In this document: positions 2,407 to 11,096 of the stretch, piece after piece
Position numbering within the stretch: position 1 is the first letter of the stretch
Layout: every line of letters begins with the position of its first letter
Source: a virus
Direction: 5' to 3' (one strand)
DNA length: 25,931 nt
IMG/VR virus record: IMGVR_UViG_3300028581_000214
Span: 1-25,931 of that record
The notes under the pieces: model-generated
Told to the model about the DNA's origin: nothing
The model's input: the letters and a program-made list of their open reading frames with translations, nothing else
Databases searched by the model: none
Made by a program: the position numbers and the translations under genes

Positions 2407-2555
2407 CCCCCACCCTCTACCGCTGCCGCACCTGTGGCAGCGAGTGGACGACATCCGTGCCGGCGGTCATCACCTGCCCGCACGGCGAGCACAGCGGCCG
2501 ACGGCCGACGGTGATGGACAAGATCGACGAGACAGAGACAGGGGACAACCAATGA
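2403..2555 (+). CDS. Mini zinc-ribbon protein, 50 aa
   Basis: A GTG start overlaps the TGA of the helicase-methyltransferase gene (GTGA), and the frame stays open to TGA at 2553-2555, which overlaps the ATG of the next gene. The product has a CxxC knuckle (C8, C11) and a second CxH/CxxxxH cluster (C25, H27, H30), enough ligands for one zinc ribbon. The tail is polar and acidic. Tight overlap on both sides argues for a real coupled gene. Small zinc ribbons like this may bind nucleic acid or partner proteins, but no function can be assigned. The last codons also carry the GACAGGGGAC start-associated sequence of the next gene. Confidence 0.6.
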   Translation: MTPTLYRCRTCGSEWTTSVPAVITCPHGEHSGRRPTVMDKIDETETGDNQ

Positions 2556-3274
2556 CCAACATCCAACATCCACTCCGGCTGGCAGTCGGATCACACCAGG
2601 CAGGCTCGGGCCAGGGCTGCGCCATGAACGTCGTGTCGTGGGAGTCCGGCGACACCACCATCACCGACATGCCCGCCTGCGCCGATCGGGTGCTCGCCCG
2701 CATCGCGCAGCGGGTCAACGACATGATCTGCACGCACCGTGACGGCGATCTGTTGTGCCCGTCGTGCTCGGTGCTGGTGCTCGACCTCGCCCATCGCACG
2801 GTCGGCACCGGCACGGTCGCCCTGACCGAGATGGAGCTTCGTCGGGTGTGGGTGCGGATCGCCGCCGACCAGGCCCGCCAGGTGGCGCACCTGAACCCCG
2901 ACCCTCGGGTGATGGCAGCGATCAAGGCGGCTGAGGGTTGGTGCGACGGCACGGTGACGGCTGAGCAGTGCCGTCAGGCCGCCTACGCCGCCTACAACGC
3001 CGCCAACGCCGCCAACGCCAACGCCGCCTACAACGCCGCCAACGCCGCCTACGCCGCCTGCGCCGCCAACGCCTGCGCCGCCAACGCCAACGCCGCCTAC
3101 GCCAACGCCGCCTGCGTCGACGCCGCCAACGCCGACGCCGACGATCAGCTGAAGCTCGCCCACCGGGCCATCGACGTGTTCGAGCAGCACACCGGCTTCA
3201 AGGCGGGCAGGCCGGACCCGGTCGTCGTCACCCGTGCGGTTGAGCAGATGGCGCAGGTGAGCTACCCGACTTGA
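2552..3274 (+). CDS. Conserved phage protein with Ala/Asn/Tyr triplet-repeat tract
   Basis: The chosen start is the ATG in the ATGA overlap with the zinc-ribbon gene, preceded by GACAGGGGAC 5 bases upstream; the frame is open further upstream but lacks a better start. The 240 aa product has three parts. Residues 1-140 form a globular region with Cys residues (CTH..., LLCPSCS) and the pattern GSH...GCAMN...S that resembles an actinophage hypothetical family I recognise but cannot name. Residues 143-196 are almost only Ala with Asn, Tyr, Cys or Asp at every second or third position. Residues 197-240 form a polar, helical-looking tail. Function unknown. The repeat tract is encoded by GCCGCC plus AAC/TAC/TGC units, so it may expand and contract by slippage. 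Confidence 0.75.
   Translation: MTNIQHPLRLAVGSHQAGSGQGCAMNVVSWESGDTTITDMPACADRVLARIAQRVNDMICTHRDGDLLCPSCSVLVLDLAHRTVGTGTVALTEMELRRVWVRIAADQARQVAHLNPDPRVMAAIKAAEGWCDGTVTAEQCRQAAYAAYNAANAANANAAYNAANAAYAACAANACAANANAAYANAACVDAANADADDQLKLAHRAIDVFEQHTGFKAGRPDPVVVTRAVEQMAQVSYPT
2978..3141 (+). repeat. In-frame GCC-GCC-(A/T)AC codon repeat tract
   Basis: About 54 codons are dominated by GCC, with AAC, TAC, TGC or GAC interspersed, giving hexamer and nonamer DNA repeats. The third-position residues vary while the Ala codon is always GCC, as expected for replication-slippage expansion followed by point change at the first base (A/T) and second base of the variable codon. Confidence 0.85.
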
Positions 3275-5784: not shown

Positions 5785-5841
5785 GTGGTGCCCTGCCTGA
5801 AGCGAACGAACGAAAGGCGTGACCAGCGTGTCACAGACCGA

Positions 5842-6879
5842 ATGACCGACCCGACTCTCACCGCCGACTGGCTGCGCTACGTCTACGCCCGGGCCATCGG
5901 CGTAGGCATCCCCGGCGTGGCGGTGTTGTCGACGCCGACCATCCACGAGGGGCGCAAGGCGTGGAAGTCGAAGTGCTTCCAGCTCGACGAGCTCGACGAG
6001 GCCGGGCGCGCTGCGTCGGGTGCGTCCGAGGCCGGGCTGAACATCTACTACCGGGTGCACCTGCTCGGGGCGCCGGTGTCGCCGTTCAAGCGTGGCGGTG
6101 GTGCGTCGACCCGCTGGGTCACCCACATCACCAGCGACGTCGACATCGCCGGGCCGGGGCACAAGCCGCCGGCGGGCAAGCACCTGCCGACGCTGGAGCA
6201 GGCCGTCGACCTCATCGACGCCACGCTGGCGCCGTCGGCCATCGTCGCCAGTGGCGGCGGGCTGTACCCGGTCTGGCGGCTGGCTGAGCCGTTCTTGATC
6301 ACCGGGCCCGACGACACCGAGCGGTTTCGTCAGATCGGCCGACGGCTCGACGCTGCGCTCGGCTCGCACGGCTACCACGTCGACGCCACGGCGCTTGACC
6401 TCGCCCGGGTGATTCGCCCGCCCGGCGTCGACAACCGCAAGCCGGGGCGGGACGTGCGCAGCGTGACCGTGCTACGGCACTGGTCCGACGGTGCGGGCGA
6501 CGTGACGCTCGGCGAGCTTGAGGAGCGCCTGCCGGTCGTCGAGCCGAAGCGCATCCGTCGCCTCGCCCCGCTCAGCACCACCGGTGACGCCCCGTGGGAG
6601 ATATTCGCCAACAAGCACAGCGTCACCGACGTGCTCGACGCCGACCCAACCCACCAGTGGGAGGACGTCGGCACCCGTGGCGGGATGCCCGCATGGCGTT
6701 ACGTCGGGTCGTCGTCGGACTACTCGATAAAGCAGTCCGACACCGGCGCCGTGATCGTCTGGTCCGGCACCATCGCCGACGAGCTCGGCATCGAACCGGG
6801 CGACGGCGTCGACCTGTGGCGCCTAGCGTGCACGTTCGCCGGCATCGACCCGACCCAAGCAGCGAAGGGGGCAGTGTGA
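5842..6879 (+). CDS. Primase-polymerase (AEP prim-pol superfamily)
   Basis: ATG 5842 is the best start: upstream in-frame GTG 5785 directly abuts the hairpin. Product 345 aa. Archaeo-eukaryotic primase motifs: SDVD with D99 and D101 (metal-binding DxD), SGGGLYPVW (137-145, the nucleotide-binding motif, with Tyr where many enzymes have His), and ATALDLARVIRPPGVDNRKPG near 180-200 (the third Asp and the RxPGxxN signature of phage/plasmid prim-pols). The C-terminal 130 residues are a separate domain. It probably lays down primers and may also extend them; it overlaps the helicase gene (GTGTGA) and the two likely form a minimal replisome. Confidence 0.8.
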   Translation: MTDPTLTADWLRYVYARAIGVGIPGVAVLSTPTIHEGRKAWKSKCFQLDELDEAGRAASGASEAGLNIYYRVHLLGAPVSPFKRGGGASTRWVTHITSDVDIAGPGHKPPAGKHLPTLEQAVDLIDATLAPSAIVASGGGLYPVWRLAEPFLITGPDDTERFRQIGRRLDAALGSHGYHVDATALDLARVIRPPGVDNRKPGRDVRSVTVLRHWSDGAGDVTLGELEERLPVVEPKRIRRLAPLSTTGDAPWEIFANKHSVTDVLDADPTHQWEDVGTRGGMPAWRYVGSSSDYSIKQSDTGAVIVWSGTIADELGIEPGDGVDLWRLACTFAGIDPTQAAKGAV

Positions 6880-8204
6880 GCGCGCTGCACGAGATGATCT
6901 ATGGGGCGGTGCGGGAGTCGGCCGAGCGTCGCAGCGAGCGCCAGCGTGACGACGAGCGGGCAATGAACGCCCTGACCCGCCAGCCGGTCGGCACGGTGGC
7001 GCCCGTGGCGATGCAGGTGGCCGACGAGCTGCCGAGCGACCCGGAGCCGATGAGCACCTACGACACCGACCTGCTGAGCCAGATCGTCGACTGGGGCGAG
7101 TTCTGGTCGCAGGACACCGACGAGGAACAGTGGATGGCCGAGCCGGTCATCGCCCTCGGCCGTGCCCACGCCATCTACGCCCCGGGTGGCACGGGCAAGA
7201 GCCTGTTCAGCCTGTGGCTCGCTGCGGCGCTCGCTACCGGGCGACAGGGCCTCGACGGTGAGCCGTTGACCCGGCGGCGGGTGCTGTACCTCGACTACGA
7301 GATGACGCACGCCGACGTGCTTGAGCGGCTGCGGTCGATGGGCTACGACGAGTCGTGCGACCTGTCGTGGCTGTCGTACGCCATCCTGCCGACGCTGCCG
7401 CCCGCTGACGCACCCGAGGGCGGCAAGGCCATCGCCCGCATGGCGCAGCTCGTCGACGCCGAGATGGTGGTGCTGGACACGTTCAGCCGGGCGGTGAGCG
7501 GCGACGAGAACGACGCCGACACGGTGCGGTCGTTCTACCGCTGGACCCTGCTGCACCTCAAGTCGGACGGCCGCACGTTCGTGCGCATCGACCACGCCGG
7601 CAAGGACGTCGAGAAGGGCCAGCGAGGCTCGTCGGCCAAGAACGACGACGTCGACGTGGTGTGGCAGATGGTCAAGGCTGACGGCGGCTTCAAGCTCACG
7701 GCCAAGAAGGCGCGCATGGGCTGGGTGGCGCCGACCATCGCACTCCAGCAGTTCGACTCGCCGAGCCTGCACTACAAGGCGGTCGGGTTCGTCGCCCCGG
7801 CGGGCACTGATCGCATCGTGGCCGACCTCGACGACCTCGGTGTGCCGGGTGACGCGACGACCCGTGCGGCCGCTCAGGCGCTCAAGTCGGCAGGCCGTGG
7901 CGCACGTATGGAGCTCGTCCGGGCGGCACAGAAACGGCGTGGCGTGGTGACGCTGGAGGGGCTGATCGGGGTCGGGACCCACCCGGGACCCACCCCCTTG
8001 GAGGGTACCCCGGGACCCACTCGGGACCCACAACCCGGAAATGCCCATCTACCAGGTACGGACCCACTGCGGGACCCACGGGACCCACCAGATTTCCCTA
8101 GTGGGTCCCGGGGTCCCCTACCTAGTGGGGACCCGGACCCAGGGCGGCATTCTGCGACGCCGCCGACCACCATCATCGACGGCGTCGAGGCGCCGCTGTG
8201 GTGA
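6876..8204 (+). CDS. RecA-fold replicative helicase / RepA-like ATPase
   Basis: GTG 6876 overlaps the prim-pol stop and has AAGGGGG upstream. Product 442 aa. Walker A is APGGTGKS (102-109), Walker B MVVLDTF with D201, followed by SGDENDA, and a sensor-like RIDHAGKD (237-244) as in RepA/DnaB-type hexameric helicases (AAA_25). Residues 330-365 look like a small helical region. From about residue 366 the protein becomes Pro/Gly/Asp-rich low complexity, because its DNA is a cluster of GGGACCCAC repeats. The role inferred is DNA unwinding at the phage origin alongside the prim-pol; the repeat-bearing tail recalls lambda O, whose gene contains the origin. Confidence 0.8.
   Translation: MSALHEMIYGAVRESAERRSERQRDDERAMNALTRQPVGTVAPVAMQVADELPSDPEPMSTYDTDLLSQIVDWGEFWSQDTDEEQWMAEPVIALGRAHAIYAPGGTGKSLFSLWLAAALATGRQGLDGEPLTRRRVLYLDYEMTHADVLERLRSMGYDESCDLSWLSYAILPTLPPADAPEGGKAIARMAQLVDAEMVVLDTFSRAVSGDENDADTVRSFYRWTLLHLKSDGRTFVRIDHAGKDVEKGQRGSSAKNDDVDVVWQMVKADGGFKLTAKKARMGWVAPTIALQQFDSPSLHYKAVGFVAPAGTDRIVADLDDLGVPGDATTRAAAQALKSAGRGARMELVRAAQKRRGVVTLEGLIGVGTHPGPTPLEGTPGPTRDPQPGNAHLPGTDPLRDPRDPPDFPSGSRGPLPSGDPDPGRHSATPPTTIIDGVEAPLW
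7974..8140. repeat. Iteron-like GGGACCCAC cluster, candidate replication origin
   Basis: Six exact GGGACCCAC copies start at 7974, 7985, 8012, 8023, 8071 and 8080, with a one-mismatch copy at 8059 (CGGACCCAC) and an inverted copy at 8101 (GTGGGTCCC). Next come GGGGTCCCC (8110-8118) and GGGGACCCGGACCC (8127-8140), which can fold back on 8103-8118 across TACCTAGT. The copies fall in all three codon frames of the helicase gene, so the DNA word, not the peptide, is conserved. Origin function is inference. Confidence 0.75.
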
Positions 8205-8383
8205 CCCCCGCCCCGTACCCCGGCGGCACCGCCTGGCGCTGCCCGAACTGCGGCTACGGCCCACACGTCTGGTCCGCCCTGCCGATGCACCGAGCGCCAC
8301 GGCATCGCTGCCAGGCCGGCGGGCGTCGGCAGTACTCGATGGTGCCTGTTGAACCCACCCCCGAAGCCAAGGAGCCGCAATGA
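8201..8383 (+). CDS. Mini zinc-finger protein, 60 aa
   Basis: GTG 8201 overlaps the helicase stop (GTGA); GTG 8198 is one codon upstream and equally possible. Possible zinc ligands are C14 and C17 (CPNC), then H22, H30, H35 and C37 in the segment ending HRC. The start bases GTGACCCCC are identical to those of the mini zinc-ribbon gene at 2403, which also directly follows a helicase gene. The last codons carry the AAGGAG ribosome-binding site of the next gene. Likely a nucleic-acid- or partner-binding accessory; function unknown. Confidence 0.6.
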   Translation: MTPAPYPGGTAWRCPNCGYGPHVWSALPMHRAPRHRCQAGGRRQYSMVPVEPTPEAKEPQ

Positions 8384-8874
8384 CCCGTACTCGCAACGAC
8401 GTCGCCCTCGAGGCGGCCAGCCTTCTCCTCGGCAACCTTGCCGCCAAGATGCCCGTCGCCATCGCCACGCTGAAGCGTGAGCTCGACATCGTCGACGGCT
8501 ACCCAGCCACGACGCTCGGCGACGGCATGTCACGATCCACCGCCGACCTCACCTCGGTCGAACGGGCCGCCGACGCCCGGTGGCGCATGTCAGGCAACCT
8601 CGACGACCTGCGCGACATGGCGACGGCGATCGTCGAGCTCGTGAACACGATGGCGACGATGACCGACCGAGCACTCGGCACCCGTGCCCCGGCGGCCGAC
8701 GTGGCTCGCTGCCGTGACCACCAGCTCGGGCGCGATGGTGCGCTCGACTGGGGCGACCCGACGTGTGAGGAGCTGCCGGTCAAGGCTGGCGTCTGTGGTG
8801 CGTGCTACCAGCGCGAGCGACGCTGGCGCATCGGTGCCGGGCTGGCCGAGCGTGACACCGCCCCGGCGGCGTGA
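8380..8874 (+). CDS. Hypothetical protein with C-terminal Cys/His cluster
   Basis: ATG 8380 overlaps the preceding TGA and follows AAGGAG by 7 bases. Product 164 aa. Residues 1-95 are mostly helical with no motif I recognise. The C-terminus has C111-x2-H114, C129 and C139-x2-C142, a likely structural zinc site, followed by a basic stretch (RERRWR). It is the last gene of the left module and ends just before a promoter-like region. A DNA-binding or regulatory role is possible but only by analogy. Confidence 0.7.
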   Translation: MTRTRNDVALEAASLLLGNLAAKMPVAIATLKRELDIVDGYPATTLGDGMSRSTADLTSVERAADARWRMSGNLDDLRDMATAIVELVNTMATMTDRALGTRAPAADVARCRDHQLGRDGALDWGDPTCEELPVKAGVCGACYQRERRWRIGAGLAERDTAPAA

Positions 8875-9426: not shown

Positions 9427-9648
9427 GTGCTCGAAGACATTAAGTCTGGCGACCATCGTAAAGCGCTAACGGCGTTGCGTGACGTGCTTGCCGATCATCT
9501 TGCGATTGCCGAACCGAGCGTGTCCGCACAGATCGCGGGCCGATTGCAAGCGGTACTCAATGACCTAGCCGCATTGCCGGCCGAGGCGTCAGCGCTCTCA
9601 ACGGCTGACCAGTTGCGAGCCCGTCGCGACAAGCGCCGCAGCGCATGA
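9427..9648 (+). CDS. Terminase small subunit-like protein
   Basis: GTG 9427 follows TAGGCGG. Product 73 aa, mostly helical, with the pattern LEDIKSGDHRKALTALRDVLA...L...DQLRARRDKRR. It resembles the short proteins found directly upstream of large terminase in many actinophages and usually called small terminase; they bind the packaging start site. It overlaps the large subunit gene (ATGA). Assignment rests mainly on position and this helical pattern; it is shorter than classical TerS proteins. Confidence 0.6.
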   Translation: MLEDIKSGDHRKALTALRDVLADHLAIAEPSVSAQIAGRLQAVLNDLAALPAEASALSTADQLRARRDKRRSA

Positions 9649-11096
9649 GGACCGGCGCGCAGGTTCCGCGCCTCTCGTTCGTTCCCGAGTACGTGAGCAA
9701 CCACGCCGCTGACGACGTAATCGAAATGGCGCGCGTTGCCGGAATGCCACTTGACCCGTGGCAGGAATGGGTGGCGCGCAATTCGCTAGGCGAGCTTGAC
9801 GATGAACGTTGGGCGGCGTTCGAGGCTGCGCTCATCGTCCCGCGCCAGTGCGGCAAATCGGCACTGATTCAAGCGCTCATCATGGCGGCGCTCATCGTGT
9901 GGCGCGAACAGACCGTGATCTACTCGGCGCACTTGTTCGCCACGGCGCAGGAAACGTTTATGCGCTTGCGTGCGCTGTTCGAGAACAGCGAATTTGCCGA
10001 CGAGGTTGCGAAGGTCTACACGGCGAACGGCAAAGAGTCCATCATCCTCAAGAACGGTTGTCGCGTAAAGTTCATGGCGCGCAGCCGTGGCGGTGGTCGC
10101 GGTTTCTCGGGTGACCGCATCATCTTTGATGAGGCTTACGACCTGTCGCCGCAGAGCATCGGCGCAATGGTGCCCACGCTCGCGGCGCGCTCGATGCGCG
10201 GCGAGAGCAATCCGCAAATTTGGTATGCGTCATCCGCGCCACACGTGGATTCCGTCGTGTTGCACGCAATCCGCAAGCGGGCACAGACCGAGACTCCCGG
10301 CCGGCTGTTCTTTGCGGAATGGTCCGCGCCGGCCGACGTTGACCCCGACGACGTAGACGCGTGGTACCAGGCAAACCCGGCGCTCGGGATTCGCATTGCC
10401 GAGGATTTCGTACGCGACGAACGCGCCGCGCTCATGCATTCGCCGCATGAGTTCCTACGCGAACGGCTCGGCGTGCCCGATGAACCGCCGAGCGTTGACG
10501 GGCCCGAGCCGAAACTAGACCCGGCGCTCTGGCAAGCGACCGTGACCGCGGACCGGCTTGAGCCCGAGCCGGGCGCTTGCGTGTTCGCTTTCGACATTCA
10601 CCGCGATTGGTGCTCCGTCGCTATCGGCATGGGCACGCTCGGCGCGCCCTACGTTGAGATAACGGACTACCGGACGGGCGACGGTTGGCTACCCAATCGC
10701 ATCGTTGAGCTAGTGATGAAATACCGGCCCGCGGCTATCGGGCTTGACGGCGCGAGCGGCGCAGCGGTTGCCGTGCTCGGCGTCATCCGCGAACGGCTCG
10801 AAGACAACGGCCTAGACCCTGACATGGTTAGGCCGCTCACGACCACGGCCTACCGAGCTGCGTGTGGCGGTTTCGCTCGGTCGGTCGCTGACGGCTCGCT
10901 ACGTCGGCCGCTGGTCAACCCTGACCAGCTCAAGCTAGCCGGGCTCAAGGCAAGTGAGCGCATCGTTGGCGACTCATGGCTATGGGATAGGCGCGCCGCA
11001 ACCGTGACGCTCTCGCCGTTGATCGCGGCGACCGTGGCGCGGTCGCTACTGAGTGACAAACAGCAAGCTGAGCCCGAACCGTTCTACGTGTACTGA
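9645..11096 (+). CDS. terL: Terminase large subunit
   Basis: ATG 9645 overlaps the small subunit stop. Product 483 aa. The packaging ATPase has Walker A VPRQCGKS (65-72) and Walker B IIFDEAY (D162, catalytic E163). The C-terminal nuclease has the first metal Asp in FAFDIHRD (D317) and a second in IGLDG (D368); further acidic residues lie near 450. It pumps DNA into the prohead and cuts the concatemer, acting at the portal with the HNH protein and small subunit. Length is typical for this family. Confidence 0.93.
   Translation: MRTGAQVPRLSFVPEYVSNHAADDVIEMARVAGMPLDPWQEWVARNSLGELDDERWAAFEAALIVPRQCGKSALIQALIMAALIVWREQTVIYSAHLFATAQETFMRLRALFENSEFADEVAKVYTANGKESIILKNGCRVKFMARSRGGGRGFSGDRIIFDEAYDLSPQSIGAMVPTLAARSMRGESNPQIWYASSAPHVDSVVLHAIRKRAQTETPGRLFFAEWSAPADVDPDDVDAWYQANPALGIRIAEDFVRDERAALMHSPHEFLRERLGVPDEPPSVDGPEPKLDPALWQATVTADRLEPEPGACVFAFDIHRDWCSVAIGMGTLGAPYVEITDYRTGDGWLPNRIVELVMKYRPAAIGLDGASGAAVAVLGVIRERLEDNGLDPDMVRPLTTTAYRAACGGFARSVADGSLRRPLVNPDQLKLAGLKASERIVGDSWLWDRRAATVTLSPLIAATVARSLLSDKQQAEPEPFYVY

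Follow-up and report, generated by a model that had tools for sequence, protein, structure and literature searches.

Several described replication systems share features with the locus analysed here. In lambda O and in TP901-1 ORF13/Tuc2009, the phage origin consists of short direct repeats that lie within the gene for their own binding protein (PMC7466680; PMC8965321). In SaPI Rep, the C-terminal domain of a helicase recognises iterons located directly downstream of its own gene (PMC7581432, citing Ubeda 2007), and a similar proposal has been made for SCCmec Cch2, a helicase paired with a primase-polymerase (PMC7581432). In RSF1010 the helicase RepA depends on a separate protein, RepC, for the opening of the origin (PMC8965321), and the replication protein of pRN1 has a C-terminal DNA-binding domain and requires a stem-loop just behind its gene (PMC4234260). 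Each element is already known on its own, the origin inside a gene from lambda O and the self-recognising helicase from SaPI Rep. In the open-access literature searched, we found no report that combines an origin inside a gene with self-recognition in a RecA-fold helicase, and no natural specificity code of the size described below.

We analysed a 25,931-base stretch of viral DNA (hereafter, the window), in which a previous reading made from the letters alone (the sequence-only reading) had proposed an iteron-type origin inside a helicase gene, with lambda gene O as the precedent. This precedent agrees with the literature (PMC7466680), and comparison with relatives supported the proposal. We consider it likely (probability about 0.74) that the array is an iteron replication origin and that the helicase encoded by the surrounding gene reads it through its C-terminal domain, although both the binding and the start of replication at this site are inferred.

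The helicase gene and its neighbours

The helicase gene (6876..8204, + strand, 442 amino acids) belongs to AAA_25 (Pfam, 5e-23), and its GTG start codon lies in a GTGA overlap with the stop codon of the upstream gene. The best PDB folds for the modelled core (1nlf, 1olo and 1g8y) are those of RepA of RSF1010, a hexameric helicase (Foldseek E 5.6e-12, TM 0.69 by target), indicating a RepA/KaiC-like RecA fold. The upstream gene (5785..6879, + strand, start codon unverified) encodes a primase-like (AEP/prim-pol) protein (PHROG 2478 DNA polymerase/primase, E 6e-8; weak RepB_primase). The locus thus resembles the RepA-RepB-RepC system of RSF1010 in having the closest solved core fold and a primase-like protein encoded next door. 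It differs from lambda O and the origins of that kind, where a dedicated initiator recruits the helicase, in that the gene containing the repeats encodes the helicase itself. SaPI Rep and SCCmec Cch2 have SaPI Rep-like, D5-like cores, unlike the AAA_25 RecA-fold core found here, and pRN1 differs in having an SF3 helicase and no iterons.

Behind the core, the models contain a C-terminal three-helix domain (7806..7940, + strand; residues 405-449 of P0001) with helices at residues 405-415, 423-432 and 439-448, which we infer from the covariation described below to be the reader of the iterons. Pfam and PDB sequence searches with this domain gave nothing convincing and no Pfam family was matched, and Foldseek found no significant PDB match, a few winged-helix regulators being among the insignificant ones. 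Because the fold has no significant match, the term HTH-like is used as a description and not as a demonstrated homology. The domain, in the window and in the relatives, may represent an undescribed DNA-binding domain family, a possibility for which no binding data are available. The domain is followed by a tail (7941..8201, + strand) whose translation, as the sequence-only reading had stated, is of low complexity and rich in Pro, Gly and Asp; its codons carry the array, and it is not conserved among the relatives. The terminase gene (9645-11096) lies about 1.4 kb downstream of the array, which is located at the border between the replication and packaging genes.

The repeat array in the window

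Exact copies of GGGACCCAC are present on the + strand at 7974..7982, 7985..7993, 8012..8020, 8023..8031, 8071..8079 and 8080..8088 (iterons 1 to 4, 6 and 7), with a near-exact copy, CGGACCCAC, at 8059..8067 (iteron 5) and an inverted copy on the - strand at 8101..8109, so that direct and inverted copies together extend over 7974-8109. The start-to-start spacings are 11, 27, 11, 36, 12 and 9, and the copies occupy all three codon frames. In the whole 25,931-base record the exact word occurs 7 times, always within the array. The number and kinds of copies, their location, their spacings and the use of three frames had been stated in the sequence-only reading and were confirmed. The commonest 9-mer of 7941-8204 has 7 copies, against no more than 4 in 2000 dinucleotide shuffles, and in 2000 synonymous recodings of the same region, with the peptide kept, no 9-mer exceeded 4 copies. 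Neither composition nor peptide therefore accounts for the array.

The long imperfect hairpin that had been noticed was also confirmed (8071..8117; arms 8071-8088 and 8101-8117). Its arms are made of iterons, the inverted copy being in the 3' arm, and when folded as DNA its score (z -5.4) was equalled by none of 200 shuffles. A second hairpin (8103..8140, GGGTCC..GGTCCCC / GGGGACCCGGACCC; DNA fold z -2.2) and the first are mutually exclusive. The spacer between the iteron groups (8032..8058) is 48% AT, compared with 23-27% in the flanking iteron blocks, and a role for it in unwinding is not shown. An AT-rich tract adjoins the iterons of lambda, whereas none is evident here, the spacer being only 48% AT. 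An Rfam search gave only chance matches below the threshold.

The iteron array is not the densest repeat in the window, and the scale of the sequence-only reading is corrected in this respect. Tandem coding repeats of the GCCGCCAAC type are denser at 2978-3143 in the ORF 2444-3274; they encode an Ala/Asn/Tyr-rich stretch and are ordinary coding repeats, unlike the iteron array.

One alternative interpretation is that the array is an operator cluster and that its binder, either the helicase or a phage repressor, controls how the replication or late operon is transcribed. Arrays of binding sites can indeed regulate, and this one is at the border between the replication and packaging genes. However, no promoter-like or terminator-like site was found in 7700-8500, although the sigma-70 consensus used is a poor test because the phage is GC-rich. 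The array also lies inside or right behind the gene, the word tracks the helicase domain, and its confinement to the array argues against an operator regulon. We regard this interpretation as very unlikely.

Layout and repeat words among the relatives

Relatives were collected with helicase queries in five scans of viral contigs and one of genomes, together with Streptomyces phage mu1/6, giving at least 304 sequences (at most 80 loci per search), of which 105 were non-redundant. The loci were thus selected by the helicase and not by the array. A search of a plasmid collection found no relatives. When the densest repeated 8-mer was searched for blindly, the 600 nt behind the helicase C-terminal domain ranked top in 77 of the 105 loci, and a top-ranked array was absent in the remaining 28. 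In ten relatives (L012-L014, L027, L028, L098-L100, L274 and L281) the helicase ends shortly after the C-terminal domain and no array is detectable; their origin has possibly been moved or lost.

In most relatives the array is within the 3' end of the gene, in which respect the system differs from SaPI Rep, and in others (L019, L021 and the ACGGCGT group) it is just past the stop codon and non-coding. Unlike in lambda O and similar systems, the word differs widely between lineages, with GGGAACCAC, GGGAACCG, GGGACACC, GGGACAGG, GGGGCGCG, GGGACGCG, GGGGACCAC, GGGGAACC, GGGAACGT, ACGGCGTG and ACAAGCAA among others, and the 79 arrays fall into 32 word classes at the chosen threshold. The copies are spaced by multiples of about 11-12 nt (peaks at 10-13, 21-26, 33-37 and 44-45 nt); they sit one to four helical turns apart and are thus helically phased. 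Hairpins with iteron arms likewise recur; stems of at least 11 occur in 53% of the arrays, compared with 5.3% of control stretches. The words are confined to the arrays, with 475 copies inside and 29 outside, where 34 would be expected by chance. The locus thus shows repeats concentrated at one site beyond chance, phased and in a replication gene, as in an origin of the lambda O kind; the cognate relation between protein and repeats is here inferred from covariation. In the helicase relatives from Mycobacterium genomes (L094, L095 and L096) the arrays consist of GGGACAC, with copies about equally frequent on both strands, and may be made up of sites paired in inverted orientation instead of direct repeats.

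Within close groups the copy number varies and the word stays, and the iteron columns are more conserved than the spacers in seven of eight groups. The sequence-only reading had proposed aligning related helicase genes to see whether repeat number varies while the word persists; this outcome was obtained within close groups, and across lineages the word changes. Its inference that selection acts on the DNA and not on the peptide was also supported, as synonymous recodings do not reproduce the array and the relatives keep a phased array with a changed peptide. The opposite interpretation, a low-complexity tail maintained at the protein level with DNA repeats as a by-product of GC-rich Pro, Gly and Asp codons, has in its favour that the tail is indeed rich in these residues. 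It is contradicted by the occupation of three frames, by the recodings (no more than 4 copies against 7), by the unrelated tail peptides of other lineages and by the non-coding arrays of some relatives, and is all but excluded. Peptide low complexity as the cause of the array was accordingly rejected.

Among named phages in culture, only Streptomyces phage mu1/6 (NC_007967) has this helicase; its gene for gp21 ends in an array of ACCTGCCC with a hairpin (L022 4626-4815), the 3' end of the gene being at about 14.1-14.3 kb of NC_007967. The array is unannotated and gp21 is annotated only as a DNA helicase. This protein is 60% identical to its closest relatives among the viral contigs (L217) and about 40% identical to that of the window over the matched part. 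No report of this origin was found in the open-access literature (subscription papers, including any on mu1/6, were outside the scope of the search).

We also examined other features of origins. DnaA boxes were 13-fold enriched near the arrays (0.35/kb versus 0.026/kb elsewhere) and were present, sometimes in front of the array, in only 12 of the 79; no lineage word is itself a DnaA box. There is no DnaA box near the array of the window, and a DnaA-box origin in the window was rejected. No enrichment of an AT-rich unwinding element was found, the lowest-GC 20-mer being 0.434 in arrays and 0.450 in controls. GC skew, another check that had been proposed, shifted in the expected direction in 33 of 46 loci (p 0.001), a signal that is weak overall. 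In the window the skew was opposite to the expectation.

Covariation of the repeat word with the helicase

For each pair among the 79 arrays, the similarity of the words was set against the identity of the proteins, with permutation tests that ignore phylogeny. The final 44 helicase columns correlated with the word at rho 0.56 (0.55 as a partial correlation given the ATPase core), and none of 500 permutations gave a value as high, whereas the ATPase core gave 0.13 (partial -0.04) and core blocks of equal size at most 0.11. The relation between domain and word was positive in every one of the seven core-identity bins (0.27-0.56), was 0.45 with GC difference as a covariate and 0.38 within G-rich words only. 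Along the helicase, the signal climbs at residues 401-440, the three-helix domain, no other part of the protein having an identity that tracks the word; columns 421, 423 and 438, located ahead of helices 2 and 3 or at their start, are among the strongest. Neighbouring gene families, including terminase and exonuclease, did not correlate with the word (-0.10 to 0.17).

Natural swaps illustrate the same relation. L035 and L044 have 81% identity in the core and 20% in the domain, and their words are ACGGCGT and ACAAGCAA; L039 and L019 have 40% identity in the core and 55% in the domain, and both have GGGAACCG. There is also an exception. The word ACGGCGTG is common to L034 and L035 on the one hand and L047, L063 and L087 on the other despite strongly differing C-terminal domains (L034 and L063 have the same word with only 27% domain identity). 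Fitch parsimony of the word classes was uninformative and did not separate the trees (38 changes on the domain tree, 39 on the core tree). The data nevertheless favour the C-terminal three-helix domain as the likely reader, a conclusion inferred from covariation without binding data. Of the two binders suggested in the sequence-only reading, the helicase is thus preferred; the other, a mini zinc protein, is not widely conserved as a neighbour.

A referee may object that the array is an iteron origin bound by host DnaA or by an unrecognised phage initiator, and that the domain covaries with the word only through co-inheritance as one cassette. Co-inheritance remains allowed because the domain and the array adjoin, and the permutation tests take no account of phylogeny. 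Moreover, RSF1010, the closest structural relative, uses the separate initiator RepC (PMC8965321), and DnaA boxes are enriched beside the arrays. However, linkage would need a sharp stop on both sides, because the part of the core immediately preceding the domain (residues 371-390, partial 0.03) and the downstream families are nearly without signal. No other gene family was found in more than 32 of the 79 array loci, and DnaA boxes occur in a minority of arrays and differ from the lineage words. Unlike in RSF1010, it is the extra C-terminal domain of the helicase that covaries with the word; no neighbouring gene family behaves like RepC in this respect, although a distant gene is not excluded. 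We consider this explanation unlikely.

It is also conceivable that the array is a site for packaging, partition or recombination and lies between the replication and terminase genes by coincidence, since such sites have repeats and hairpins and the terminase gene is close downstream. However, the word does not track the terminase (partial 0.17 in 18 loci where the helicase domain reached 0.32), and no partition genes were present among the window families searched. This explanation appears very unlikely. The operator array and the recombination site, both named as alternatives in the sequence-only reading, are thus disfavoured.

We therefore return to the origin read by the helicase. The array, its phasing, the hairpin, the covariation of word and domain and the absence of the word elsewhere are shown; direct binding, strand opening, ring loading and the start of replication at the array are inferred, as there are no replication or binding data. 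In the proposed mechanism, the C-terminal domain, encoded just upstream of the array, would bind the GGGACCCAC iterons, and with copies separated by one or more helical turns, several subunits would come to lie on the same face of the DNA. The iteron-armed hairpin and the spacer may assist opening or the exposure of single strands, the RepA-like RecA-fold ring would assemble in place on the array, and the primase-like protein encoded just upstream would prime synthesis. The helicase would thus probably start copying of the genome at the array without a separate initiator protein. Host DnaA may assist in some relatives, which have DnaA boxes; the window has none.

By the strong covariation of domain and word, though without binding data, the system appears to work like SaPI Rep; its core, however, is not of the SaPI Rep or D5 type. 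Because the working is alike and the core differs, we regard it as a variant of known systems, a RecA-fold helicase with an apparent origin reader of its own. In a bolder reading, to which we incline by a narrow margin, widespread RecA-fold (RepA/DnaB-like) hexameric helicases would be their own origin-recognition proteins through a fused, previously undescribed three-helix domain that reads iterons at the end of the gene, and domain and word would have changed together into more than 30 specificities, each replisome assembling only on its own origin.

If true, a ring helicase of the RepA/DnaB kind would locate its start site without a separate initiator, recognition and unwinding being united in one protein. 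The pairs of domain and word (79 arrays, 32 word classes) would provide a ready-made specificity code, in which near-natural swap experiments exist between phages with helicase cores 70-80% identical. Phage mu1/6 is the best laboratory handle on the system. In a large set of phages that have not been cultured, most of them GC-rich and with actinobacterial hosts where known, the origin would become computable from sequence alone. The finding would also invite the testable hypothesis that the word changes rapidly because of origin incompatibility.
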